DNA from: a virus
Length of the DNA stretch: 37,992 nt
Direction: 5' to 3' (one strand)
Virus record (IMG/VR): IMGVR_UViG_3300010410_000003
Span: 1-37,992 of that record
The notes beneath the pieces are model-generated. The model was not told the origin of the DNA. It ran no database searches and was given only the letters and a program-made list of their open reading frames with translations. The position numbers and the translations under genes are program-made. Shown here one piece after another: positions 6,728 through 37,992 of this stretch; within the stretch, counting starts at the first letter, position 1, and each line of letters starts with the position of its first letter.

Positions 6728-8693
6728 TCTGAGTGCATTCTCTGAAGGAATTGAAATACCAATCACCGGGGATATCACAGGATTAACCACCGCACTTGAT
6801 GATGCAAACACAGAACTTGATACATTCTCTGGCAAGGTTGAAAAGAATAAAGGCATTATCCAGGGCGCGGGCATAGCCGCAACCGCAGTCGGCGGGACTA
6901 TTGTTGGTGGATTCGCCCTTGCCACGAACGCGGCCGTAGACTTTGAAACCGGAATGAGTGAGGTATTCACTCTGCTGCCTGGTCTGTCTGCAGATGCTAT
7001 GGGTGAGATGTCAGATGATGTACACAGTTTTTCTGTAGAAGCGGGGCGCACAACAGACGAAGTAATGCCTGCACTTTATCAGTCGATATCTGCAGGCGTT
7101 CCAAAAGAGAACGTGTTCACATTCCTTGAAACCGCAAATCAAGCCGCAGTTGGTGGGGTAACTGATCTCGAGACTGCGGTGGATGGCATATCCTCTGTGG
7201 TCAATGCCTATGGTGATGATGTAGTCAGCGCAACAGAAGCATCTGATCTGATGTTTACAGCAGTTAAACTTGGTAAAACAAACTTTGAAGAGTTGTCTGG
7301 TAGTCTTTTCAACGTTATACCAACAGCTGCTGCACTTGGGGTAGAGTTTGGCGATGTCACTGCGGCAATATCGTCTATCACAGCACAAGGTACGCCAACA
7401 AGTGTGGCCACCACTCAGATACGTTCTGCCTTGGTTGAGATGTCAACTGCTGGGAGTGATGCATCTGATATGTTCACTGAAGTTGCTGGCGTCGGATTCA
7501 AAGAGTTCATTGCACAGGGGGGGAATCTGCAAGATGCTTTAGGGGTAATGTCTACAGCAGCAGAAAATCATAATGTTGCCATTAATGATCTTTTTGGATC
7601 TGTTGAAGCAGGCAGCGCAGTCCTTGCACTGACAGGGAAAGGATCTGAAAAGTTTGCATCTGATCTTGAAGCAATGGGCACCTCCACGGGCGCAACATCT
7701 GAAGCGTTTGGGACGATGGATGAGACATCTGCAAGGTCGATGGACAAGATCATGGCAATGATCGAGGATTTCCAGTTGGAAATTGGGGATGTATTTCTTC
7801 CGATTCTTAAAGATGATATCTTACCCGCGCTCAAAGGTCTGCTTGATATGTTTGATGGTATCCCAGACAGTGCCAAACCATTTATTGTTGCAGTGGGCAT
7901 AATTGGAGCGGGCCTGGTGATCATAGGGCCTTTACTTGTGGCATTGCCTGCAATTATCGGGGGGGTTGGTGCGGCATTTACTTTGCTATCTGCAAACCCT
8001 ATCGTGCTGGTTGTCGGCGGGCTTATCCTGCTGTTTGTGCTCTTGCAGACAAAGTTTGATATCATCGGCAAGGCGGCAGACATTCTCGGCAAAGGATTTG
8101 AATGGTTATCAGGTACTGTCTCAGACCTGATTGACTGGATCACAGATGCGGTTGATTGGTCTGATGTCCTCGGCACAGCGTTTAAGATCCTCCTTGGCCC
8201 GATTGGCTGGGTAATGACCGCCATGGAGCACTTTGGCGTATCATGGGATGATGTCTGGCAAGGTATGCTCAGCATTGCGCAGAGGGTATCAGGATTTATC
8301 GTTGGAATCTTTGATAGTATTGTGGGCACCGTGAGAACATCTATAAACTGGGTCATTGATGGTATCAACACCATGATCAGAGGACTTAACCGCCTCAGCT
8401 TTGATGTGCCCGACTGGGTGCCGGGTATCGGCGGCGAGAGCATAGGATTCAGCCTGAACGAATTGCCACACTTTGCAGACGGGGGAATTGTCACTGAGCC
8501 AACCCTCGCAGTTGTCGGTGAAGCAGGCCCGGAGGCTATTGTGCCTTTATCTGGAAGCAATGCAGGGGGCATGGGTAGCGTGACTATCAATGTGGAGTCA
8601 ATGAATGTCAGAGACGATCAGGACATTAAGAAGATCGCAACACAGCTCTACTCTATCATAGACCGGAAGAATGGTGCAAGAGGTATCAGATGA
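6720..8693 (+). CDS. Tail tape measure protein
   Basis: A 657-aa protein starting at GTG 6720 inside the previous gene's end. An N-terminal hydrophobic helix (IAATAVGGTIVGGFALATNA) is followed by the TP901-type tape measure region (FETGMSEVFTLLPG, EAGRTTDEVMPALYQSIS, TDLETAVDGISSVVNAYG). Residues about 386-440 contain several hydrophobic helices that could insert into the host membrane. The C-terminus has PTLAVVGEAGPEAIVPL, a motif common at the end of tape measures. By the usual rule of about 0.15 nm per residue the tail would be near 100 nm. It sets tail length and travels through the tube at DNA ejection. Confidence 0.9.
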   Translation: MADLSAFSEGIEIPITGDITGLTTALDDANTELDTFSGKVEKNKGIIQGAGIAATAVGGTIVGGFALATNAAVDFETGMSEVFTLLPGLSADAMGEMSDDVHSFSVEAGRTTDEVMPALYQSISAGVPKENVFTFLETANQAAVGGVTDLETAVDGISSVVNAYGDDVVSATEASDLMFTAVKLGKTNFEELSGSLFNVIPTAAALGVEFGDVTAAISSITAQGTPTSVATTQIRSALVEMSTAGSDASDMFTEVAGVGFKEFIAQGGNLQDALGVMSTAAENHNVAINDLFGSVEAGSAVLALTGKGSEKFASDLEAMGTSTGATSEAFGTMDETSARSMDKIMAMIEDFQLEIGDVFLPILKDDILPALKGLLDMFDGIPDSAKPFIVAVGIIGAGLVIIGPLLVALPAIIGGVGAAFTLLSANPIVLVVGGLILLFVLLQTKFDIIGKAADILGKGFEWLSGTVSDLIDWITDAVDWSDVLGTAFKILLGPIGWVMTAMEHFGVSWDDVWQGMLSIAQRVSGFIVGIFDSIVGTVRTSINWVIDGINTMIRGLNRLSFDVPDWVPGIGGESIGFSLNELPHFADGGIVTEPTLAVVGEAGPEAIVPLSGSNAGGMGSVTINVESMNVRDDQDIKKIATQLYSIIDRKNGARGIR

Positions 8694-9271
8694 CGGACAA
8701 CGGCGGATTTAAACTGAATGGTGTGCCTGTGAGCACATACGGGGTAACTCTCATGTATGCACCAGGTCAGCCGATGCTGCCGGGCACACGTGACAGAACT
8801 GCGGATGTGCTTAACAGAGCGGGTCAGTATTGGATTGACTCTGAACTTGGTACGCGGGAGTTTTCTCTCCCCTGCCAGTTTTACGATTGTGATTCAGCGG
8901 CGGAACTGGACGCAAAGATCCGGGCATTTGCGCGGTTGTTTGTGGATGAAACAGGCAGGCCAAAAACGCTTAAACTTGAGTTTGACGACTGCGAAGGCTG
9001 GTTCTACACGGTCAGATACAACGGGGTGATACCGTTTGATAGGGCATGGGTTGGTGCGATTGACTTTACACTTGAGCTTATTGCAGACGACCCGTATGCA
9101 TACGGCACAAGTGAGGAGTATGACTATGATACGATCACGACATCGCCGGGATCATTAGAGATCACAAGTGATGGCAACGTCTCCACGCCAGCGATTGTCT
9201 GTGTGGAAAACACAGGGGCAACAGAGATTACGGGCGGATTCTCGTTATCAATCCAGTATGAGGTGGACTAA
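8690..9271 (+). CDS. Distal tail protein (Dit-like)
   Basis: A 193-aa protein whose start overlaps the tape measure stop (ATGA). The sequence has the features of the Dit/siphovirus tail component family: an N-terminal strand with LNGVPVSTYGV, the segment LGTREFSLPCQFYDCDSAAELDAKIRAF, then LKLEFDDCEGWFYTVRYNG, and the ending IDFTLELIADDPYAYG. This protein forms the hexameric hub at the tail tip on which fibres are placed. The order tape measure then Dit is standard in siphoviruses with receptor-binding baseplates. Confidence 0.85.
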   Translation: MTDNGGFKLNGVPVSTYGVTLMYAPGQPMLPGTRDRTADVLNRAGQYWIDSELGTREFSLPCQFYDCDSAAELDAKIRAFARLFVDETGRPKTLKLEFDDCEGWFYTVRYNGVIPFDRAWVGAIDFTLELIADDPYAYGTSEEYDYDTITTSPGSLEITSDGNVSTPAIVCVENTGATEITGGFSLSIQYEVD

Positions 9272-9678
9272 TGGGATACGTAGGAATGAGCGATTACGCG
9301 CTTAATGCGATGCTAAAACATTTGCACAATGAGGAAACATACACGCCACCGAGCACATATCTGGCGGCGTTTATTGGCAACCCCCTCAGCATAGGAACAG
9401 AAGTCAGCGGTGGAGGATATGCACGGCAGGCAGTCACATGGGACGGAGTGACGAGCGGAACAAACGAGTACACGGACGGCAACAGCGCAGAGATTGCATT
9501 CCCGGAGGCGACCGCAGACCTTGGTATTATCACGCACTGCGCAACTTATGACGCGCTGACTGTGGGCAACATGCTTGAGGTGTTTGAACTTGCAACGGCC
9601 CGCAATGTCGTCACTGGTGGTATACTAAAAGTAGCAGCAGGAGACCTTGATTCTGCCATTAAGCGGGAGTCAATCTGA
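9271..9678 (+). CDS. Phage tail protein of unknown subfamily
   Basis: A 135-aa protein resembling a family found in many phages, with a pattern such as TPPSTYLAAFIGNPLSIGTEVSGGGYARQAVTWDG. These usually occur near tail tip or fibre genes, and their exact role is not settled. The gene overlaps the Dit gene's stop and the next gene's start by one base each (TAATG and TGATG). No membrane segment. It is probably a minor tail tip component. The family recognition is from memory. Confidence 0.6.
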   Translation: MGYVGMSDYALNAMLKHLHNEETYTPPSTYLAAFIGNPLSIGTEVSGGGYARQAVTWDGVTSGTNEYTDGNSAEIAFPEATADLGIITHCATYDALTVGNMLEVFELATARNVVTGGILKVAAGDLDSAIKRESI

Positions 9679-10098: not shown

Positions 10099-11910
10099 AT
10101 GGTAGCAAACGGGTATTATCCAGCAATACAGAATAGCCTAGAGGGGCAGACAACTGCACTTATCAGCGATAGTGCAACGACTATCCCGGTTGATTTCTGC
10201 CAGTATTATATCCCGGCAGGGTGGGCATATGATGATGTATCGTATAATGCGCCAGTATTGGCGGTGCTCGGTCCGGACAACTCAGATTACACTTATCCTG
10301 AGACAGTGAAGATCACAGGGATCAGTGTTGCATCAGGGGCAGGCAACCTCACAGTATCGCGAGGGATTGGTGCAACATCAACAGCAGGGTATGCGCGAAC
10401 ATGGGCAAGTGGCACAAAGATCGCACCTATACTCACTGCACAGCACATCACACAGATACAGGGCGGGTTGGCCGCACTGTCCCGGGATATTGTTGTAGGG
10501 ATCAAGATTGACAATAGCAGCTCAAATCCATCACTGACCTATGTTGATATCGACAAGCAGGCGATCACACTTGATGCCGCAGATTTCAATGCCTCAAAGA
10601 TCTGGGGCAGTATCAGAAAGTGTGTGATTGACCCAGCGACAAACAAGATCACATATGGAAGCAATGCCAGGGGAGATGGTCTTGATCTGACTGGTGCCTC
10701 TGGTGATGTCATGGTAGAGTATCAGCCATTCTATTGGGCTGCTGAGAGAGATGGCGACATTGAGTATCAGTGGGGGTCACCATACCCATATGCGGGCCTG
10801 CCAATCCATCCTTGGTTTGTCCAGAGGGGGGGGTATGTTTCGCCGATGTATCTTGGTGCTTATGGTGCCTGCCTGCTGGATGATGATGGCACTCTCAAGC
10901 TGGTATCAAAAACCGGAGAGCAACCTATCACAGGCGGCGAGATGTGGGCACTTGCCTATACATCTGGCTCAACTGAGTTCACCGTTGGGGAAACTTTGAC
11001 TGGAGCTACAAGCGGGGCAACCGGCGATGTTGTGACCTATCATCTTACATCCGGAACCTGGAGTGCTGGCGACGCTGCGGGCACAGTGTATGTCAAGCAG
11101 CATGACTATGCAACAACCCCGTATCAAGCAGAGGATATCAACGGGACAACTGCCGGGGCAAACTGTTGTAGTATTGCTGATGCTGGATCAGGACTAGGTT
11201 TTGTCATTGCAGACAGCGAGAGCATGGGAAACGCCAAAGGCTCTGGATGGGGATCTGCATGTTGGTGGTCTTGGCATGCTCGTATGTTCCTGATGTATGC
11301 AGATCTTGGGACACGCGATGCACAGACTGCCCTTGGGCAGGGCGTTGTTAATCTGGCATCTGGAACCGGGTATGCAGGTCTTGAAAACGGCGCGGATTCA
11401 TCTGACACCAACATCGGCACAAACGGAACTGGAAGCGGAACTGGCACAGATGGACAAACACCAGTAGTATGGCGTGGATTACAAGATCCATATGGCAACT
11501 GGTGGGAGTTTGTGACAGGTTGGCTTGCAGTTAACGCGGGATACCAGATTGTCAACAGGGCGGGTCTTGCCTCTGCGGTGATGCCAGCGGGGACTTTCAG
11601 TGATGCATCAGAGTATGAGCAGAGTGTAACTGCACCGATCACCGTAGATGGATATATCAAGGGCTATGTTTATGCAGATACGTTACTGCTCGGCCTGTTC
11701 ACACCATCTGACACAACTGGTAGCAGCGATACATACGCGTGTGACTACCTGTATGCACATGATTCTGGAGAGACAAACATCCGCCTGGGCGGGGGCTATT
11801 GGATTACTGGCGGTATTGCGGGTCCCGGCTGTCTGGCTGCGAATAACGGCTCATCGGGTTCCACTCGTACTATCGGTGCCCGCCTCGAGTTCAAGCCGCA
11901 AAATGGATAA
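10099..11910 (+). CDS. DGR target: variable tail/receptor-binding protein, C-type-lectin-like (FGE) fold
   Basis: A 603-aa protein. Residues 1-about 125 resemble a virion attachment domain. Residues about 140-603 show the pattern of a formylglycine-generating-enzyme/C-type lectin-like domain: a WWSWHARMFLMYADLGTRDA helix, WRGLQDPYGNWWEFVTGW near 458-475, and a GGG-W...IGARLEF end. The last 35 codons (residues about 563-597) are the VR of the retroelement. Compared with the TR, 13 residues have been altered there, such as Asn to Tyr, Ile, Thr, Ala or Gly. In known DGRs this surface binds the receptor. The start has GAGGT upstream at 10087-10091. Confidence 0.88.
   Translation: MVANGYYPAIQNSLEGQTTALISDSATTIPVDFCQYYIPAGWAYDDVSYNAPVLAVLGPDNSDYTYPETVKITGISVASGAGNLTVSRGIGATSTAGYARTWASGTKIAPILTAQHITQIQGGLAALSRDIVVGIKIDNSSSNPSLTYVDIDKQAITLDAADFNASKIWGSIRKCVIDPATNKITYGSNARGDGLDLTGASGDVMVEYQPFYWAAERDGDIEYQWGSPYPYAGLPIHPWFVQRGGYVSPMYLGAYGACLLDDDGTLKLVSKTGEQPITGGEMWALAYTSGSTEFTVGETLTGATSGATGDVVTYHLTSGTWSAGDAAGTVYVKQHDYATTPYQAEDINGTTAGANCCSIADAGSGLGFVIADSESMGNAKGSGWGSACWWSWHARMFLMYADLGTRDAQTALGQGVVNLASGTGYAGLENGADSSDTNIGTNGTGSGTGTDGQTPVVWRGLQDPYGNWWEFVTGWLAVNAGYQIVNRAGLASAVMPAGTFSDASEYEQSVTAPITVDGYIKGYVYADTLLLGLFTPSDTTGSSDTYACDYLYAHDSGETNIRLGGGYWITGGIAGPGCLAANNGSSGSTRTIGARLEFKPQNG
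11784..11889 (+). repeat. DGR variable repeat (VR)
   Basis: This 106-base segment aligns without gaps to 12267-12372. It differs at 16 positions, and every one is A in the TR copy (8 A to G, 5 A to C, 3 A to T). All 77 non-A positions agree. It encodes the last variable surface of the tail protein. At both ends the identity stops, at CCTG on the left and CTCGAG on the right. Confidence 0.95.
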
Positions 11911-12217
11911 GATGGAGGACGATAACACGATACCAAAGTTTGCGGATTTTGCAGATCACGGGGGGCGACTGGACGGGGAGAAACTAAAAATAGAAGAGGT
12001 TCTGGGGAAAGAACTCATTATTCTTTCTTTTTCTGTCAGACCGAGCCGGTATGAAAACGACTATTTAACCATCCAATTTCAGTATGAAACAGGTGGGGAA
12101 CATCACGTCGTGTTCACTGGTTCAACTGTGTTATCTGAACAGCTCAAGCAGTATTCAGAAAAGTTGCCATTTGCCGCAGCAATACAAAAAATAGGCAAAT
12201 ACTATAGTTTTGTATGA
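11903..12217 (+). CDS. Small beta-rich protein within the DGR cassette, unknown function
   Basis: A 104-aa protein starting at ATG 11903, which overlaps the end of the variable protein gene in another frame. An upstream reading in the same frame (from 11648) is only a shadow of that gene. After an acidic start the sequence has alternating strands (KELIILSFSVRPSR, LTIQFQYETGG, EHHVVFTGS), then a helix, and ends PFAAAIQKIGKYYSFV. The end resembles small OB-fold-type ssDNA-binding proteins of some phages, from memory. It lies between VR and TR, where the Avd accessory gene often sits, but Avd is a helical bundle and this is not. A role in retrohoming or nucleic acid binding is only a hypothesis. 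Confidence 0.7.
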   Translation: MDKMEDDNTIPKFADFADHGGRLDGEKLKIEEVLGKELIILSFSVRPSRYENDYLTIQFQYETGGEHHVVFTGSTVLSEQLKQYSEKLPFAAAIQKIGKYYSFV

Positions 12218-12512
12218 CTATGACTATAAGGACATGCTGCGTATGGTGGGCGGCGCTGGTTTTCCTCCTGGGCGGGGGCAATTGGAATAATGGCAGTAAT
12301 GCGGGTCCCAGCTATCTGAATGCGAATAACGAATCATCGAATTCCAATCGTAATATCGGTGCCCACCTCGAGCTCAGATTGAGCGGCTCTGAACAGCAGC
12401 ATATCCTGCACCGGGGTATCCGGTCAAACACGTTACACTCTCTCTGGCCTGTGTTGGTAGGCTCGCCGAAGATTCAGGCTAAGAGACAGAGCATCTATTT
12501 TTGGAGTTCAGC
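12218..12512 (+). ncRNA. DGR template-RNA region (noncoding), contains TR
   Basis: The 295 bases between the small DGR gene and the reverse transcriptase contain the TR and its flanks. A frame open from 12214 to 12516 is probably not translated, since its TR portion reads as the Asn-rich translation typical of template repeats. A weak TATA-like sequence at 12222-12230 could start an RNA near 12250. RNA ends are not determined. In known DGRs the RNA spans the TR and the region up to the RT gene. Confidence 0.5.
12267..12372 (+). repeat. DGR template repeat (TR)
   Basis: A 106-base copy of the VR with 29 adenines, of which 16 are changed in the VR. In the VR frame it reads with many AAT/AAC codons (segments such as NWNNG and NRN), the classic design that allows the greatest amino-acid variety and excludes stops. 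It lies 141 bases before the reverse transcriptase start. The right-hand flank after CTCGAG differs from that of VR, as expected for IMH-star versus IMH. Confidence 0.95.
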
Positions 12513-13574
12513 ATGAAGAGATATGGCAACCTCTATACTCAGATATGCGCAAAGGACAACCTTTACAGAGCACACCTGAACGCACGGAAAGGTAAGTCAC
12601 ACTATGTTGAGGTGCAAGCGGTCAATGCTGACCCCAAGCCCTACATCGACGCCCTGCATGAGATGTTGGTCAACAAGACATATCGCACAGCAGAGTATCA
12701 GACAAAACAGATATATGAGCCCAAGCAGCGAACCATCTACAAGCTGCCATACTACCCTGACCGGATCGTGCATCACGCGATCATGCAGGTGCTACAGCCG
12801 ATATGGGACAAGCAGTTTATTTATGATCTCTACTCTGCAATACCGGGCAAGGGACTGCATGCAGGCTCATATCGCCTGCGAGAGTTCCTGAAAGATACTC
12901 CTAACACACGATACTGTCTTAAGATGGATATCGCTAAGTATTATCCATCGGTTAGACATGACGTACTCATTGACCAGATCAAACACACGATCAAGTGCCC
13001 GGACACGCTCTGGCTCTTGGAAGAGATCATCCGTTCCCCTAGGGGGGAGACAAACATCCCGATCGGGAATTATTTGTCTCAGTACTTCTCGAACATTTAT
13101 TTATCAGAACTAGACCATCTGATCAAAGAGAAGTATCGGATGAAATACTATATCCGATACTGTGATGATGCTGTCGTCCTACATAGTGACAAGGCAGTAC
13201 TCAAAGATCTCCTTGAAGAGCTCACGGAACGCCTTGAACCTATGGGACTGCAGCTGAACAAAAAGACACAGATCTTCCCGGTCGATGCACGAGGTATTGA
13301 CTTCCTCGGATATCGGCACTTCCGAGGGTATACCCTTCTGAGATCCTCTTCTGCCCGGAGACTGAAACGCAGGCTTCGGGGTATCGTCTCACATCCAGAA
13401 CGATACGATGCACAGACCATCATTAGTTCAGTGATGGCATATGCCGGATGGCTGAAACACTGCAACTCATACAACCTACAGCAGACCTGCCTGCTCACTC
13501 CTGCCATACAGGACGTTATGCGGGCCTCAGCTGCATCACTGGGGATATGCAACCCCATGGAGAAACTATCATGA
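12513..13574 (+). CDS. DGR reverse transcriptase
   Basis: A 353-aa group-II-intron-like reverse transcriptase that copies the TR RNA into mutagenised cDNA. ATG 12513 has GGAG about six bases upstream. The TTG at 12501 is less likely. Motif A is KMDIAKYYPSVRHD (Asp-139), motif B contains IGNYLSQ at 184-190, the [ILV]GxxxSQ signature of DGR enzymes, and motif C is YCDD at 216-219. Motif D/E segments include GLQLNKKTQ and GIDFLGYRHF. There is no maturase or endonuclease domain, and the length suits the DGR class. A stop overlap (ATGA) joins it to the next gene. All motifs look intact, so it is likely active. Confidence 0.95.
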   Translation: MKRYGNLYTQICAKDNLYRAHLNARKGKSHYVEVQAVNADPKPYIDALHEMLVNKTYRTAEYQTKQIYEPKQRTIYKLPYYPDRIVHHAIMQVLQPIWDKQFIYDLYSAIPGKGLHAGSYRLREFLKDTPNTRYCLKMDIAKYYPSVRHDVLIDQIKHTIKCPDTLWLLEEIIRSPRGETNIPIGNYLSQYFSNIYLSELDHLIKEKYRMKYYIRYCDDAVVLHSDKAVLKDLLEELTERLEPMGLQLNKKTQIFPVDARGIDFLGYRHFRGYTLLRSSSARRLKRRLRGIVSHPERYDAQTIISSVMAYAGWLKHCNSYNLQQTCLLTPAIQDVMRASAASLGICNPMEKLS

Positions 13575-13840: not shown

Positions 13841-14160
13841 AAGACGAAAAAGAAGAGTGGACGCAGGGGGAGATGGTTGGCACATTTGCCAACACCCCCC
13901 ACGAGCGGCACTCTATAATGGTTGGGTTTGCGAATGGGTTAAGCGAAGGTTCAAAGTTTACCTGCAGCACAAAGTATGAAGATGAAGCGCAGTACTATGC
14001 TTTGGGGTGGTCACTTGGGGAGATCATAGATCGGATTAAAAACAACAATCCTGATGACACTCGTGTGGCACTGGCGCAGTCAGCAGGTGTTATAATCAAA
14101 TATGCATCGATTGTGCTGGTTGCGGTTATCGGGTGCTGGATAAAAATGAGGGGGATATGA
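13837..14160 (+). CDS. Small protein with C-terminal membrane helix
   Basis: A 107-aa protein with a charged soluble N-terminal two thirds and one hydrophobic helix near residues 85-103 (VIIKYASIVLVAVIGCWIKM), then a short basic end. The layout resembles a tail-anchored membrane protein. It lies between the DGR and the tail hub gene, so it may aid lysis, host-membrane interaction or superinfection control. It overlaps both neighbours (ATGA at each side). No lysis-protein signature is certain. Confidence 0.6.
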   Translation: MKDEKEEWTQGEMVGTFANTPHERHSIMVGFANGLSEGSKFTCSTKYEDEAQYYALGWSLGEIIDRIKNNNPDDTRVALAQSAGVIIKYASIVLVAVIGCWIKMRGI

Positions 14161-17100
14161 GTTACAGGATTGATCTGTTTGATGCAACCGGCGCACGGGT
14201 TGCGATACTGCAAGAGGCGATACTGACCACACTGTATCTTGACACATCAACAGATGCAGCGCCAACTTTGACTTTATCCCTGCCGGTTGAGGATCCTAAG
14301 TCTGCGTATATCTCGCCACTCTACTATCTTAAGGTTTGGAACACACAGACCTCTGCGTATGAGTTCTCTGTGTTTAAACTGCTCAATCCAGAGATTGACG
14401 ACAGCAGCAGCACGTTGGAGATCAAGGCAACATATCAGGGCATACTAACCCGGTTATCCGATGAGCATATCGAGGCATACGACACCACCAGCGTAGGTGA
14501 TACCTTTGCAAACGTGATCACCGACCTGTTGGCGTTCCAGGTCAACAGCCCGGCGATCACCGTGGGCACGCTTGAGATATCCCCAACGGTTGCAATTGCC
14601 ATCGAATCTGGCAATATTTACTCGGCACTAAATTCTATCCGAGATGCGTATGGAGGGTGGTTTGAGGTAGATGCTAACTATCAACTCAACTGGTTTGCAG
14701 ACAACACAGACAATCCTAAGAGGCGCATAGAGCGACGCAAGAACCTTAAAGCCATGACATACACCCCACAATATGATCAAATTGTGAACCGTGTTTATGC
14801 ATATGGAAAAGGCGAAACAGATTCGCGGGTCACTCTTGTTGATGCGGGGGAGGCTAACGAGTATATCGATGACGCTGCATCTCAGGCACTTTATGGTGTG
14901 GTCGCACGGCAGTATATTGACAAGAGCATAACACATCCGACCACCCTGCTAAACTACGCTGAGCGCATCCTCGCACAGTACAAAGATCCGCCCTATCAGT
15001 ACAGTGTGGATGTGCTCAACCTTGCAGAGGTTGATGGGTTTGATTACAGCTTTGAGAGTTTAGGACTCGATACCCGGGTGCGGGTGATTGATGATTTGCT
15101 TAGCATTGATGTCAACACCTCAATTGTGAGCATGAGTATTAATCTGCTCAACCCCGAAGAGATCAGCATTGAACTCAGCACGATCAAAAACGATTTATCA
15201 GATCTGTTTGGCGACATCCTCAACCTGCAGGACATCAGCAATTCAGTAGCCACACAGATCGGTGCCGGGCAGGTCACGGTCCTCGGCACGTTTGTTGTCG
15301 AGGACTGGGTTACCGCCGGGACTACTACTATCGATGGCGGCAACATCACAGCAAACACGATCACGGTAGATCAGATACAGGCAGGAGTGTTGGGGAACAA
15401 AACATATAGACAGGCAGCAGAACCGGCATCACCTGATACAGGCGACATATGGATCGACTCTGATGACGGCAACCTGATGTATCGGTATGATGGCGCGGCA
15501 TGGGTTGAGACTCAGGACGCTGAGATCGGGGATGCCATAACCGCAGCTGCAACCGCACAGAGCACTGCTGATCTCAGGATCACCACGTTTTATCAGACAG
15601 ATATACCGACATCTCTCGCAGTTGGGGATCTCTGGGTAGACACTGACGACGACAACAAGCTATACCGTGCTGAGAGCATAGGTGCGGATCAAATCACTGC
15701 AGGCGAGTGGGTGATTGCCAGAGACGACGGGATCGGTCAGGCAATATCAGATGCTGCAGGAGCGCAATCCACAGCTGACAGTAAGGTGGTAACATTTGCA
15801 CAGGCAGGTATCCCAACGAGCACCGATATAGGGGATCTGTGGGTAGATACCGATGACGACAACAAGCTATATAGGGCTGCAATTATCGGTGCAGACCAGA
15901 TCACAGCAGGAGAGTGGGAACTCGTCAGAGACGATGGGATCGCGCAAGCTCTATCTGATGCATCACAGGCGATATCAGACGCGGCAACGGCACAAGGCAC
16001 AGCTGACGGCAAGGTCACGACCTTTTACCAGATTGGCGAACCAACAGCAGAGGGTGTCGGCGATCTATGGGTTGACACTGACGATGGAAACAAGCTGTAT
16101 AGGTGGTCTGGGTCTGCATGGGTTGAAGTCCAGGATGCAGGGATCGCATCCGCTATTGCTGATGCAGCAACCGCTCAGACTACGGCAGACGGCAAGATAG
16201 TATCATTTTACCAGGATACCGCGCCAACTGCAGAGGGAGAAGGTGATCTCTGGGTCGATACCGACGATGGAAACAAACTCTATCGGTGGTCTGGGTCTGC
16301 ATGGGTGACTGTCCGAGATGTTGACATCGCGCAGGCAATCTCTGATGCGGCAACAGCACAGGCCACCGCAGACGGCAAGGTCACTACGTTCTACCAGATT
16401 GCTGCTCCGACTGCAGAGGGTGTTGGTGATCTTTGGGTAGATACTGACGATGGAAACAAGCTATACCGCTGGGATGGGTCTGCATGGGTAGAAGTCCAGG
16501 ACGCAGGGATTGCGCAGGCGATATCTGACGCTGCGACTGCCCAGACGACCGCAGACGGTAAGATTGTCACATTCTATCAGGATACTGAACCCACTGCAGA
16601 AGGAGTGGGAGACATCTGGTTTGATACTGATGCAGGCAATGAGCAGTATCGATGGTCTGGGTCTGCATGGGTTAAAGCAGCGGTTACCCCTGCACAGACC
16701 ATCGCAACGATCAACCTTGATGGCGGCACCGTGCAGATCAACGGCGAACAGATCGAGTTTAACGGGACAGTTGGAAGCGGCGATGCGCTTGATTCTGGGA
16801 ATTATGTTGCGGCTACGTCAGGATGGAAGATCAACGGCGCTGGTGATGCTGAGTTTAACAACGTAACTGTGCGCGGGAACTTGGCCGCGTGCACGATTGA
16901 AGCTGGGCAATCCCTTAATGTTACTGGAACTGGGCAAGTCAAATTGATTGGAACCGATGCAAAATTCTCAATGTTTTACGCAGATAGTGACACTTACCCA
17001 TTGTACCAAGTAACAATAATATCGGATCAACCAAATATTATCCTTAGAGATGACGGTTCATCATCAGATGTAAGATTGCAAATTAATGATGGATTTATTT

Positions 17101-17423
17101 CCCAAAATGCCTCTGATAGTGATGCAAAGATTCAGCTCGTAGAGGGCGAAATATTATATTGTATATATGCGGATGGTACTACCGCAGTAAGTTTAAATTC
17201 CCTCACAGGGGTGGTAAAATTAGCAGAACTGTCATCATCTGGTGGTTCAGGGGCATCAATAATTGTAAATAATAATTTATATATGCCCACGAAAGATATA
17301 ATCTGCAATAGCCTAACAAATACCTCAGGTATCATGTACATGGGGGATTCGACCAGCTACATATTCAAATCTGGTAATGACTTATACTGGCATGCAAATT
17401 CAACAAACACAAAACTAAACTGA
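14157..17423 (+). CDS. Tail hub/fibre protein with Tal-like N-terminus and seven repeats
   Basis: A 1088-aa protein. The N-terminal about 400 residues follow the pattern of tail-associated hub (Tal/gp27-like) proteins: ATGARVAILQEAI, SPLYYLKVWNTQTSAYEF, YGGWFEVDANYQLNWF and QIVNRVYAYGKG. Residues about 415-840 hold seven repeats of about 60 aa, each with GDLWVDTDDGNKLYRW, SAWVEVQD and a helix ending in DAATAQTTADGK. The last about 170 residues are a different beta-rich region encoded by AT-richer DNA. The start is ATG 14157 (ATGA overlap). It probably anchors and extends from the tail tip and contacts the host cell. Confidence 0.8.
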   Translation: MSYRIDLFDATGARVAILQEAILTTLYLDTSTDAAPTLTLSLPVEDPKSAYISPLYYLKVWNTQTSAYEFSVFKLLNPEIDDSSSTLEIKATYQGILTRLSDEHIEAYDTTSVGDTFANVITDLLAFQVNSPAITVGTLEISPTVAIAIESGNIYSALNSIRDAYGGWFEVDANYQLNWFADNTDNPKRRIERRKNLKAMTYTPQYDQIVNRVYAYGKGETDSRVTLVDAGEANEYIDDAASQALYGVVARQYIDKSITHPTTLLNYAERILAQYKDPPYQYSVDVLNLAEVDGFDYSFESLGLDTRVRVIDDLLSIDVNTSIVSMSINLLNPEEISIELSTIKNDLSDLFGDILNLQDISNSVATQIGAGQVTVLGTFVVEDWVTAGTTTIDGGNITANTITVDQIQAGVLGNKTYRQAAEPASPDTGDIWIDSDDGNLMYRYDGAAWVETQDAEIGDAITAAATAQSTADLRITTFYQTDIPTSLAVGDLWVDTDDDNKLYRAESIGADQITAGEWVIARDDGIGQAISDAAGAQSTADSKVVTFAQAGIPTSTDIGDLWVDTDDDNKLYRAAIIGADQITAGEWELVRDDGIAQALSDASQAISDAATAQGTADGKVTTFYQIGEPTAEGVGDLWVDTDDGNKLYRWSGSAWVEVQDAGIASAIADAATAQTTADGKIVSFYQDTAPTAEGEGDLWVDTDDGNKLYRWSGSAWVTVRDVDIAQAISDAATAQATADGKVTTFYQIAAPTAEGVGDLWVDTDDGNKLYRWDGSAWVEVQDAGIAQAISDAATAQTTADGKIVTFYQDTEPTAEGVGDIWFDTDAGNEQYRWSGSAWVKAAVTPAQTIATINLDGGTVQINGEQIEFNGTVGSGDALDSGNYVAATSGWKINGAGDAEFNNVTVRGNLAACTIEAGQSLNVTGTGQVKLIGTDAKFSMFYADSDTYPLYQVTIISDQPNIILRDDGSSSDVRLQINDGFISQNASDSDAKIQLVEGEILYCIYADGTTAVSLNSLTGVVKLAELSSSGGSGASIIVNNNLYMPTKDIICNSLTNTSGIMYMGDSTSYIFKSGNDLYWHANSTNTKLN
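15399..16680 (+). repeat. Seven tandem repeats within the tail hub gene
   Basis: Seven units of about 180 bases. Each encodes a Tyr/Trp-containing beta section and an Ala/Thr-rich helix. The last four are closely similar, and units 2 and 3 carry extra residues (GADQITAGEW) in place of the SAW section. Homologous recombination between units could change copy number. Confidence 0.85.
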
Positions 17424-19639: not shown

Positions 19640-19899
19640 CCCTGACGGGCATAGTCGCACAGGCAGAACGCAGGGGCGAGTCCCTGTTTCAGGCTGATCC
19701 TACTCTTTCAACGGACCTCCGAAAAGGAGACGTTGTTTCAGATCTTGAACACGCACGCTGTCATATCCGGAGCGCGATGGCAAAGATCGAGGATTATCCA
19801 TACCAGGACAAAGCGGTCCGGGCGGAGATCATCGAGTATCTGTCGATGGACCTGAAACGGCTCGGGCAGACAATTGTCAAGTACAGGAGGGCGCACTGA
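19636..19899 (+). CDS. Small unknown protein before Bet
   Basis: An 87-aa soluble protein of mostly helical type: the middle HARCHIRSAMAKIEDY and the end MDLKRLGQTIVKYRRAH look like amphipathic helices. It starts in a four-base overlap with the previous gene (ATGA) and its stop overlaps the Bet-like start at 19899 (TGATG). It may form part of a recombination complex because of this location. No known family was recognised. Confidence 0.55.
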   Translation: MTLTGIVAQAERRGESLFQADPTLSTDLRKGDVVSDLEHARCHIRSAMAKIEDYPYQDKAVRAEIIEYLSMDLKRLGQTIVKYRRAH

Positions 19900-21086
19900 T
19901 GTCACCCCCCACACCTGCTGTTGTATCAGATGAACCACAGGTCAACCCGGCACTTATTCAGCGCATGTATGCACAGAACTGCACGCAGGACGAGTTTGTG
20001 GTGTTTCTGACACTTGCCCATAAATACGGGCTTGACCCAAGTCTGAAACAGATCTGGGCCATCAAGTACCCGGGCGGCGGGCCTGCGACGATCATTGTCT
20101 CCCGTGACGGACTCTTAGATATCGCTCACCGCAACGCCAACTTTGACGGACTGGAGAGCGGCACGGATGGCAGCGTCGCAGATGGCAACCTTACGGGATG
20201 GTGCAAGGTCTACCGCAAGGACATGAGCCACCCCTTCACCGTGACGGTGCACTATGATGAGTATGTGCAGCGGAAAAACAGCGGTGAGATCACAAAGTTC
20301 TGGAAAGACAAGCCCCGGACCATGATCGCTAAGGTCGCAGAAGCACAGACTCTGCGTAAAGCGTTCAGGGTGCAGGGCATCTACTCAGAGGATGAGATGC
20401 CATCCGGGCCAAAGGAGATCCCGGACACATCTGTGCCATTGGTCAGCGCAAACAAATGTGTTTCCTGTGGCAACCAGATCAACTCAGAACACATCGAGGC
20501 CATCCTGAAACATACCGCCGGGGTGCCGATGTGTGATGCATGCTTCTCTGACTGGTATCGCAAAGAGTGCGCGGCAAAGATTGAGGCAGCACCTGCTGTT
20601 GAAGTGGATGGACCTGTTGTTGGTACTGCGCCGGAACCTGAGCCTGTGACGCTTGTCATGTGCGCTGAGTGCGGCAACGGTGTTGAGCCAGCGTATGTTG
20701 AGTTTAGCAAGGAGAAGTCGGGCCGGGCACTGTGCCAGAAGTGTTTCGAGGCATGGTCCCAAGCACAGCAGGCCGCCAAGAAGCCTGCACCGAAGCCAAA
20801 GCCAGCACCTAAACCTGCTGCACCTGTGGCACCCAGGACTCTCTGCGTTGTGTGCAGCAAAGAGATCGCAGCAGGCACAACACACTGTCAGGCTTGCATC
20901 GAGAAGGAGATTGGGGAGAAGGCACCTGCTGCTGATACTGCCAAGGTTGTTGCAGAGTTTGGGTGTTGTGATGTCTGCGGGGATCCTGTGACCAAGAAGG
21001 ACAAGACTATGAGCCAGGTATGTTTTGACCCAGGGACTCTGCTGTGTGCGGACTGCATGGCGAAGAGACAGAGGGGCGAGATATGA
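19899..21086 (+). CDS. bet: Bet/RecT-type ssDNA-annealing protein fused to four zinc ribbons
   Basis: A 395-aa protein. Residues about 15-170 match the phage Bet/RecT pattern: FLTLAHKYGLDPSLKQIWAI, ATIIVSRDGLLDIAHRN, the FWKDKPRTMIAKVAEAQTLRKAF region and IYSEDEMP. It would anneal ssDNA during recombination-dependent replication. The rest holds four Cys-pair ribbons: C187/C190 with C212/C215, C255/C258 with C279/C282, C316/C319 with C330/C333, and C357/C360 with C383/C386. A Lys-Pro-Ala linker spans 294-312. Normal Bet proteins are about 200-260 aa and lack such a zinc-rich end. The zinc section may give DNA or partner binding. Confidence 0.85.
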   Translation: MSPPTPAVVSDEPQVNPALIQRMYAQNCTQDEFVVFLTLAHKYGLDPSLKQIWAIKYPGGGPATIIVSRDGLLDIAHRNANFDGLESGTDGSVADGNLTGWCKVYRKDMSHPFTVTVHYDEYVQRKNSGEITKFWKDKPRTMIAKVAEAQTLRKAFRVQGIYSEDEMPSGPKEIPDTSVPLVSANKCVSCGNQINSEHIEAILKHTAGVPMCDACFSDWYRKECAAKIEAAPAVEVDGPVVGTAPEPEPVTLVMCAECGNGVEPAYVEFSKEKSGRALCQKCFEAWSQAQQAAKKPAPKPKPAPKPAAPVAPRTLCVVCSKEIAAGTTHCQACIEKEIGEKAPAADTAKVVAEFGCCDVCGDPVTKKDKTMSQVCFDPGTLLCADCMAKRQRGEI

Positions 21087-37154: not shown

Positions 37155-37992
37155 ATGACATACGCATACCCTACTGCGGATGCTGGAACCGCAGGCGATG
37201 AAGTGTCTTCAACTTACGAAGGAAGGCATATTTCAGTACTTGAAAGTCAGATTACCCACCCGTCGCACACTGATGGATTCGTCGATAAAGGCGACCCCTG
37301 TATTGTCGGCGGCGTGGTTGTTGGTGTAGCTTTTACCTCAGCAGCGGCGGCGACAGACCTCATTGCACTTGATACCGAAGGGATCTGGGTGCAGGACGTT
37401 TACGCCGCTGATGGTGCTGGTAACAGTGCGGTAGCTTACGGCGATCCACTGTATATTGACGCAACCACCTGCGCAATCTCAAAGATCGCGACCGGCGTTC
37501 ATTTCGGATACGCACTTGGTATCATCACTGCGGGCAATACCGATACAATCGCCGTTAAAGTCCACTTTGATCCTAAAGACGACAACGTAGAGGACGACGT
37601 TCAGTTTAAGATCGGTTCGACTCAGGCAACCGCCGCAACGATGATCACCGCAGAGTTTGACGAAACGACCACCGGCATTGGTATCTACCAGCAGGGCACG
37701 TCTGGAGTGCCACAGGTGCTCAATACTAACCCCGGCGCTGCGGTAATCGCTAACACGGTTCACATCAACCATTCCGCAGGAGCGGGCGATTGTGACGACC
37801 TGATCGCAGCATACCAGAAAGTCACCGTTTCAGGCGATGGAGATTCCGGCCTTACCGCCGTAGGAACTGCGCCACGCCTTACCATTGGCGGCGCTGCTCA
37901 GGAAGGTTATTGTCTTCAGTCGCACGTTATCCACGAAAGCGATGACGGTATTCTCGCACTTTCCGCAGGTTCGTTCAAACTGACAACCCAGA
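37155..37992 (+). CDS. DUF2190-like head protein, N-terminal part (crosses the contig end)
   Basis: The gene starts at ATG 37155 two bases after the protease stop and continues over the join to TGA 438-440, giving about 392 aa. The N-terminus (HISVLESQITHPSHTDGFVDKGDPCIVGGVVVGVAF, and DTEGIWVQDVY...GDPLYID) has the DUF2190 pattern of head decoration proteins. Usual DUF2190 proteins are about 110-140 aa, so more than 250 further residues form an extra C-terminal region. The last 99 bases repeat the window start. It probably decorates the capsid. The N-terminal match is by memory of the family. Confidence 0.75.
   Translation, partial: MTYAYPTADAGTAGDEVSSTYEGRHISVLESQITHPSHTDGFVDKGDPCIVGGVVVGVAFTSAAAATDLIALDTEGIWVQDVYAADGAGNSAVAYGDPLYIDATTCAISKIATGVHFGYALGIITAGNTDTIAVKVHFDPKDDNVEDDVQFKIGSTQATAATMITAEFDETTTGIGIYQQGTSGVPQVLNTNPGAAVIANTVHINHSAGAGDCDDLIAAYQKVTVSGDGDSGLTAVGTAPRLTIGGAAQEGYCLQSHVIHESDDGILALSAGSFKLTTQ
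37894..37992. repeat. Terminal direct repeat, right copy
   Basis: Identical to bases 1-99. Removing one copy joins the reading frame of the DUF2190-like gene without a break and gives a closed circle of 37,893 bp. Confidence 0.95.

Follow-up and report, generated by a model that had tools for sequence, protein, structure and literature searches.

Diversity-generating retroelement in a tailed-virus genome, with a predicted OB-fold protein gene in the avd position and a covarying RNA hairpin

Genome and tail module

The window, that is, the whole stretch of DNA analysed, was a 37,992-base viral record. Its two 99-bp ends (positions 1–99 and 37894–37992) were identical. It is probably a complete genome, circularly permuted or terminally redundant, which was assembled with an overlap. 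The best matches of the major capsid and portal proteins were those of Methanoculleus virus Blf4, and a methanogenic archaeon is the likely host as judged from sequence comparisons; on the other hand, the best matches of the terminase were those of bacterial phages, which leaves the host uncertain. A Bet-family single-strand annealing protein was encoded at 19899–21086.

The target gene of the cassette described here was an open frame on the forward strand (10099–11910) coding for a tail protein of 603 aa, with the variable repeat (VR) at its 3' end, in the codons near the end of the frame. The protein matched the tail protein phrog_5302 (E 6.5e-38, residues 134–601), and the gene was located inside a tail module, together with a gene of the gp80 fibre family (9271–9678) and a prophage tail endopeptidase gene (14133–17423). 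The latter, a tail-tip gene, also contained three 183-bp direct-repeat modules, at 15966–16631. The AF2 model of the target protein had a pLDDT of 31 and did not confirm a C-type lectin fold. A match to FGE-sulfatase was obtained for one of six target homologs and was weak (E 0.067); the C-type lectin fold is common among the targets of diversity-generating retroelements (DGRs), not defining for them. An inverted repeat downstream of VR raises the efficiency of the BPP-1 element and is not strictly required (PMC12875486). Within the 100 bp downstream of VR of the window, no inverted repeat with a stem of 6 or more was found.

Variable and template repeats

VR (11784–11889) and the template repeat (TR, 12267–12372), both on the forward strand, were 106-bp repeats in the same orientation with an offset of +483 (106 aligned bases), and the limits of their identity were set by T/G (11783) and C/T (11890). 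All 16 mismatches coincided with adenines of TR (eight A>G, five A>C, three A>T); none of the 77 TR positions other than the 29 adenines differed from VR. The same had been stated in the first-pass annotation, whose counts were correct in every detail. The probability that 16 of 16 mismatches land by chance on 29 adenines among 106 positions was 1.8e-11, and a tandem duplication or a chance repeat as the source of the pair was rejected on this basis. Residues were altered in 13 codons, eight of them AAT in TR, in agreement with the earlier statement that 13 residues change, mainly at Asn codons; TR holds 10 AAY codons in the frame of VR. Both strands of the window were scanned for a second VR and none was found, the next best site being rejected with its 38 non-A mismatches. 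A mechanically predicted ORF spanning TR (12214–12516) was also rejected as a gene.

Among the loci of relatives, a repeat finder run by privileged base detected pairs for A in 66 of 79 loci, for G in 19, and for C and T in none; the 19 G-privileged pairs correspond to A>G changes read from the side of VR. When 68 repeat pairs of relatives were pooled, 1256 of the 1289 mismatches were at A, a count that is descriptive, as the repeat finder favours pairs with A mismatches. The nearest relatives kept the TR peptide pattern NWNN..NAG..Y.NANN..SNSNRN, and their VRs differed. A search of IMG/VR with the exact TR pattern (A as N) gave no matches, and no record of the same species was found.

Adenine-specific mutagenic retrohoming, as already proposed for this locus, is well supported at the sequence level as the origin of the VR/TR differences, with an intact reverse transcriptase adjoining the repeats and the same one-base signature in the 66 loci of relatives. 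The earlier suggestion of recent retrohoming, drawn from the lack of drift, agrees with the data and goes no further than that. The absence of non-A differences caps the divergence outside adenines at less than about 3.8% (95%). Zero non-A differences were also seen in roughly two thirds of the repeat pairs of related cassettes, so the lack of drift is normal for such elements.

Reverse transcriptase

A DGR-type reverse transcriptase (RT) of 353 aa was encoded on the forward strand at 12513–13574, with TR upstream at a distance of 141 bases. It matched RVT_1 (1.3e-22) and phrog_1423 (3e-124), and its best match among solved structures was a chain of 8ub7, with eight sister entries (‘Reverse transcriptase’, E 3.5e-43); we take this chain to be the bRT of BPP-1. 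The RT frame and the catalytic YCDD were intact and the SQ motif was present as IGNYLSQ. Residues R73 and I184 aligned with R74 and I181 of BPP-1, which control adenine errors. On the sequence evidence of an adenine-only VR/TR pair and an intact DGR-type RT adjoining it, the cassette is a DGR, which in itself is ordinary.

Predicted OB-fold accessory protein

Between VR and TR, an accessory ORF of about 104 aa was located on the forward strand at 11903–12217 (analysed as 11906–12217), and its ATG (11903) overlapped the stop codon of the target gene (ATGGATAA). Neither this ORF nor the RNA hairpin described below was included in the first-pass annotation. No match was obtained for the ORF in Pfam, PHROGs, NCBIfam or PADLOC. 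Seven of ten members of its family weakly matched phrog_19665 (function unknown; best E 3.3e-8), the protein of the window itself being unmatched; in the PHROGs library, this entry is tied neither to a function nor to DGRs. The protein of the window was acidic (pI 5.1), and several family members were neutral to basic.

The AF2 model, based on a 10-row alignment, had a pLDDT of 85, and its strands and helix followed each other as in an OB fold: strands 36–46, 52–59 and 67–71, helix 74–82, and strands 89–96 and 99–102, that is, a five-stranded barrel with a helix between strands 3 and 4. When compared with solved structures, the model was similar to bacterial and mitochondrial SSB and to PriB (Z 5–6.4, about 68 residues), a range in which similarity can reflect merely a common arrangement (fold Z < 8), and a PDB fold search with the model gave nothing at E < 0.001. 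The closest viral models were RT-domain proteins (top) and phage ssDNA-binding proteins. The modest similarity of the model to SSB and PriB indicates the type of fold, not the function. The family is widespread, apparently undescribed and, judged from the model, of nucleic-acid-binding type; it accompanies DGR cassettes in which Avd, the usual helper, is lacking.

A distant OB relative (25 bits) formed the C-terminal portion of a protein of 297 aa (L042, 838–1728) in a 3.2-kb locus without an RT, and may give a hint at the origin of the family.

Linkage to the reverse transcriptase

Homologs selected by the OB protein alone belonged to 15 locus groups, all of them adjoining a DGR-type RT. They were found in IMG/VR, in two phage records (ANMV-1 and Methanosarcinales virus vir525) and in four bacterial genomes, and every full-length homolog was located beside a DGR-type RT, including those of Treponema, Desulfobacterales and alphaproteobacterial MAGs. 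The genome scans gave no OB homolog with alignment A2 and three with alignment A6. In the reverse test, with loci selected by RT alone, the OB protein was present in 63 of 79 loci, 62 of them with the gene near the RT and one (L048) with the gene further from it, detected only when the whole record was searched. In the other 16 close RT loci it was undetected on searching the record, many of these records being fragments, and thus the OB protein is not universal.

The order VR-ORF-TR-RT was present in the window and in L043, L046, L049, L052, L053 and L071, while the order VR-TR-RT-ORF was found in most other OB loci, frequently with overlapping start and stop codons. In L112 (3788–5170), RT and OB domain were encoded in a single uninterrupted open frame, in which the OB domain is cut by the contig end. 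Both the linkage of the OB protein and its fusion to the RT are thus seen in the sequences themselves.

Two further cassettes had unusual arrangements. In L022 (5691–6294), an internal deletion had left the RT with only its first ~86 residues; the OB gene immediately downstream was intact, and a VR/TR pair with largely adenine-only differences was retained. In L044 (3382–6355), the OB gene and TR were located upstream of the RT and the target homolog near the far end, downstream of the RT, which corresponds to a shuffled cassette.

Avd is needed for the retrohoming of BPP-1. The Avd models NF033474 and PF05635 had no match in the window, and NF033474 had none in the 12 OB-positive records or in the 78 RT-selected records, as a result of profile searches, which a divergent Avd could escape; in the search that covered the OB-positive records, NF033474 detected Avd, below the curated cut-off, in six other DGR records without OB protein. 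The ORF in the slot was itself rejected as an Avd, a four-helix bundle, given its OB-type beta barrel in the AF2 model and the lack of an Avd profile match. In the RT tree, the OB-positive cassettes were placed apart from the Avd-positive ones, with the exception of ANMV-1 (long branch), and four OB-negative RTs were nested among the OB-positive RTs. This nesting suggests that the OB gene was lost in some lineages. The accessories named for DGRs in the searchable literature are Avd, HRDC and MSL (PMC10053308).

One alternative is that the cassette is an ordinary Avd-less DGR and the 104-aa ORF a passenger gene of the tail module. About a quarter of DGRs have been reported without an accessory gene and Avd-less lineages have been noted (PMC7290462), and the ORF is missing from some close RT loci. 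Nevertheless, this alternative is unlikely: the ORF stays with the RT despite the two gene orders, in archaeal viruses as well as in bacterial genomes, and it shares one open frame with the RT in L112. Moreover, 72,556 plasmid records contained no match to it, and all its occurrences among 50,697 phage records were next to DGR RTs.

Alternatively, the OB protein could have a general viral function in ssDNA binding or replication and be linked to DGRs solely because it aids recombination. The modelled OB fold is in accordance with such a role, as are the L042 relative, which is part of a larger protein in a locus without an RT, and the Bet annealing protein encoded by the same virus; we consider it improbable, however, since all full-length members found adjoin an RT.

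RNA hairpin in the TR-RT spacer

The spacer between TR and RT contained a conserved RNA hairpin with an RGUA/GAA internal loop (12448–12478, forward strand), which was recognised by covariation and scored 31.9 bits with the covariance model R1. In the spacer alignment (eight cassettes, of which seven were related to the window), compensatory changes were present in seven of the nine hairpin pairs; the covariation score was reached by none of 500 shuffles, and slid versions collapsed. The GUA/GAA internal loop was invariant and has the form characteristic of a bulged-G (loop E) motif. Folded as a single sequence, the spacer did not stand out (z -1.4), the structure being visible only from the alignment, and the window had no match in Rfam.

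Model R1 was built from 15 sequences and searched over 100 sources. At E up to 0.05 the search returned 40 matches, each of them located just upstream of an RT start; 25 of them were outside the model-building set, and ANMV-1 was among the 40. The hairpin was detected in none of four Avd-type loci.

That the cassette is an inactive or fossil DGR is very improbable, for, although a single VR sequence was at hand, the RT frame and YCDD are intact, non-A drift is absent (0 of 77), TR keeps its 10 AAY codons and the RNA hairpin is intact.

Proposed mechanism

We consider it likely that the cassette is a DGR of a tailed virus, with a probable methanogen host, in which an OB-fold protein takes the place of Avd and acts with the RT. 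The sequences themselves show a VR/TR pair with the adenine signature, an intact RT, an OB protein linked and in one case fused to the RT, no detectable Avd, and a covarying hairpin. From these we infer current activity, receptor binding and the biochemical role of the OB protein.

RNA comprising TR and the spacer would be recognised by the RT via the spacer hairpin and copied with misincorporation opposite template adenines. The resulting cDNA would replace VR at the 3' end of the target gene, giving a diversified, putative receptor-binding end of the tail protein. Two steps of this scheme, mutagenesis at adenines as directed by the template and the transfer to VR, are well supported. The OB protein would act with the RT, binding the hairpin RNA of the spacer and/or the single-stranded cDNA, and might prime, stabilise or deliver the cDNA, the role held by Avd in BPP-1. 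As a speculation, the Bet-type annealing protein could aid the capture of the cDNA.

If this mechanism is correct, the combination of a linked OB protein in the Avd slot and a defined RNA element would account for the function of many accessory-less DGRs and would provide compact new parts for targeted mutagenesis. Additionally, what the accessory protein does could be tested directly by a comparison of two unrelated solutions.

Comparison with known systems

The DGR of BPP-1 (mtd, avd, TR, brt) has the same gene order as the window if the OB ORF fills the avd slot, and both have homologous RTs, adenine-specific VR/TR changes and a tail target. They differ in that the window has no detected Avd and an acidic OB-fold protein in that slot, has no inverted repeat directly after VR, and shows YCDD at the RT active site instead of the YMDD of BPP-1.

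The Avd-less DGRs of crAss-like phages (RT lineage 3, PMC7290462) are arranged as Target-VR-TR-RT without avd, with related RTs (about 42% identity). In contrast to the window, the records of crAss-like phages yielded no OB homolog at the sensitivity used.

The DGR of ANMV-1 (adtA; Paul et al. 2015, PMC4372165) belongs, as in the window, to an archaeal-type tailed virus and has a tail target and adenine-only VR/TR differences. ANMV-1 carries an OB protein, AJP62065 (‘hypothetical’), directly after the RT, as well as the RNA hairpin, and differs from the window in its RT, only 34% identical, and in the position of the OB gene downstream of the RT. A figure of that paper draws an Avd ORF without further detail, and its correspondence to AJP62065 is not evident from the text available (PMC4372165). 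ANMV-1 (L024) also has a 116-bp near-identical direct repeat outside its known DGR (2431–2546 and 7360–7475); with six mismatches, and reading equally well when reversed, this repeat is not DGR-like and was rejected as a second TR/VR pair.

The DGR itself is of a known kind, and the OB accessory and the hairpin constitute a variant for which no description was found in the searchable literature on DGRs, an earlier description being possible. On balance, we favour the view that the window belongs to a large clade of DGRs from viruses and bacteria that lacks Avd and has parts in common with ANMV-1, the first DGR of an archaeal virus. This clade would work with a machinery of another kind, comprising an OB-fold accessory protein, a conserved template-RNA hairpin with a loop-E-like RGUA/GAA and, sometimes, an RT-OB fusion.
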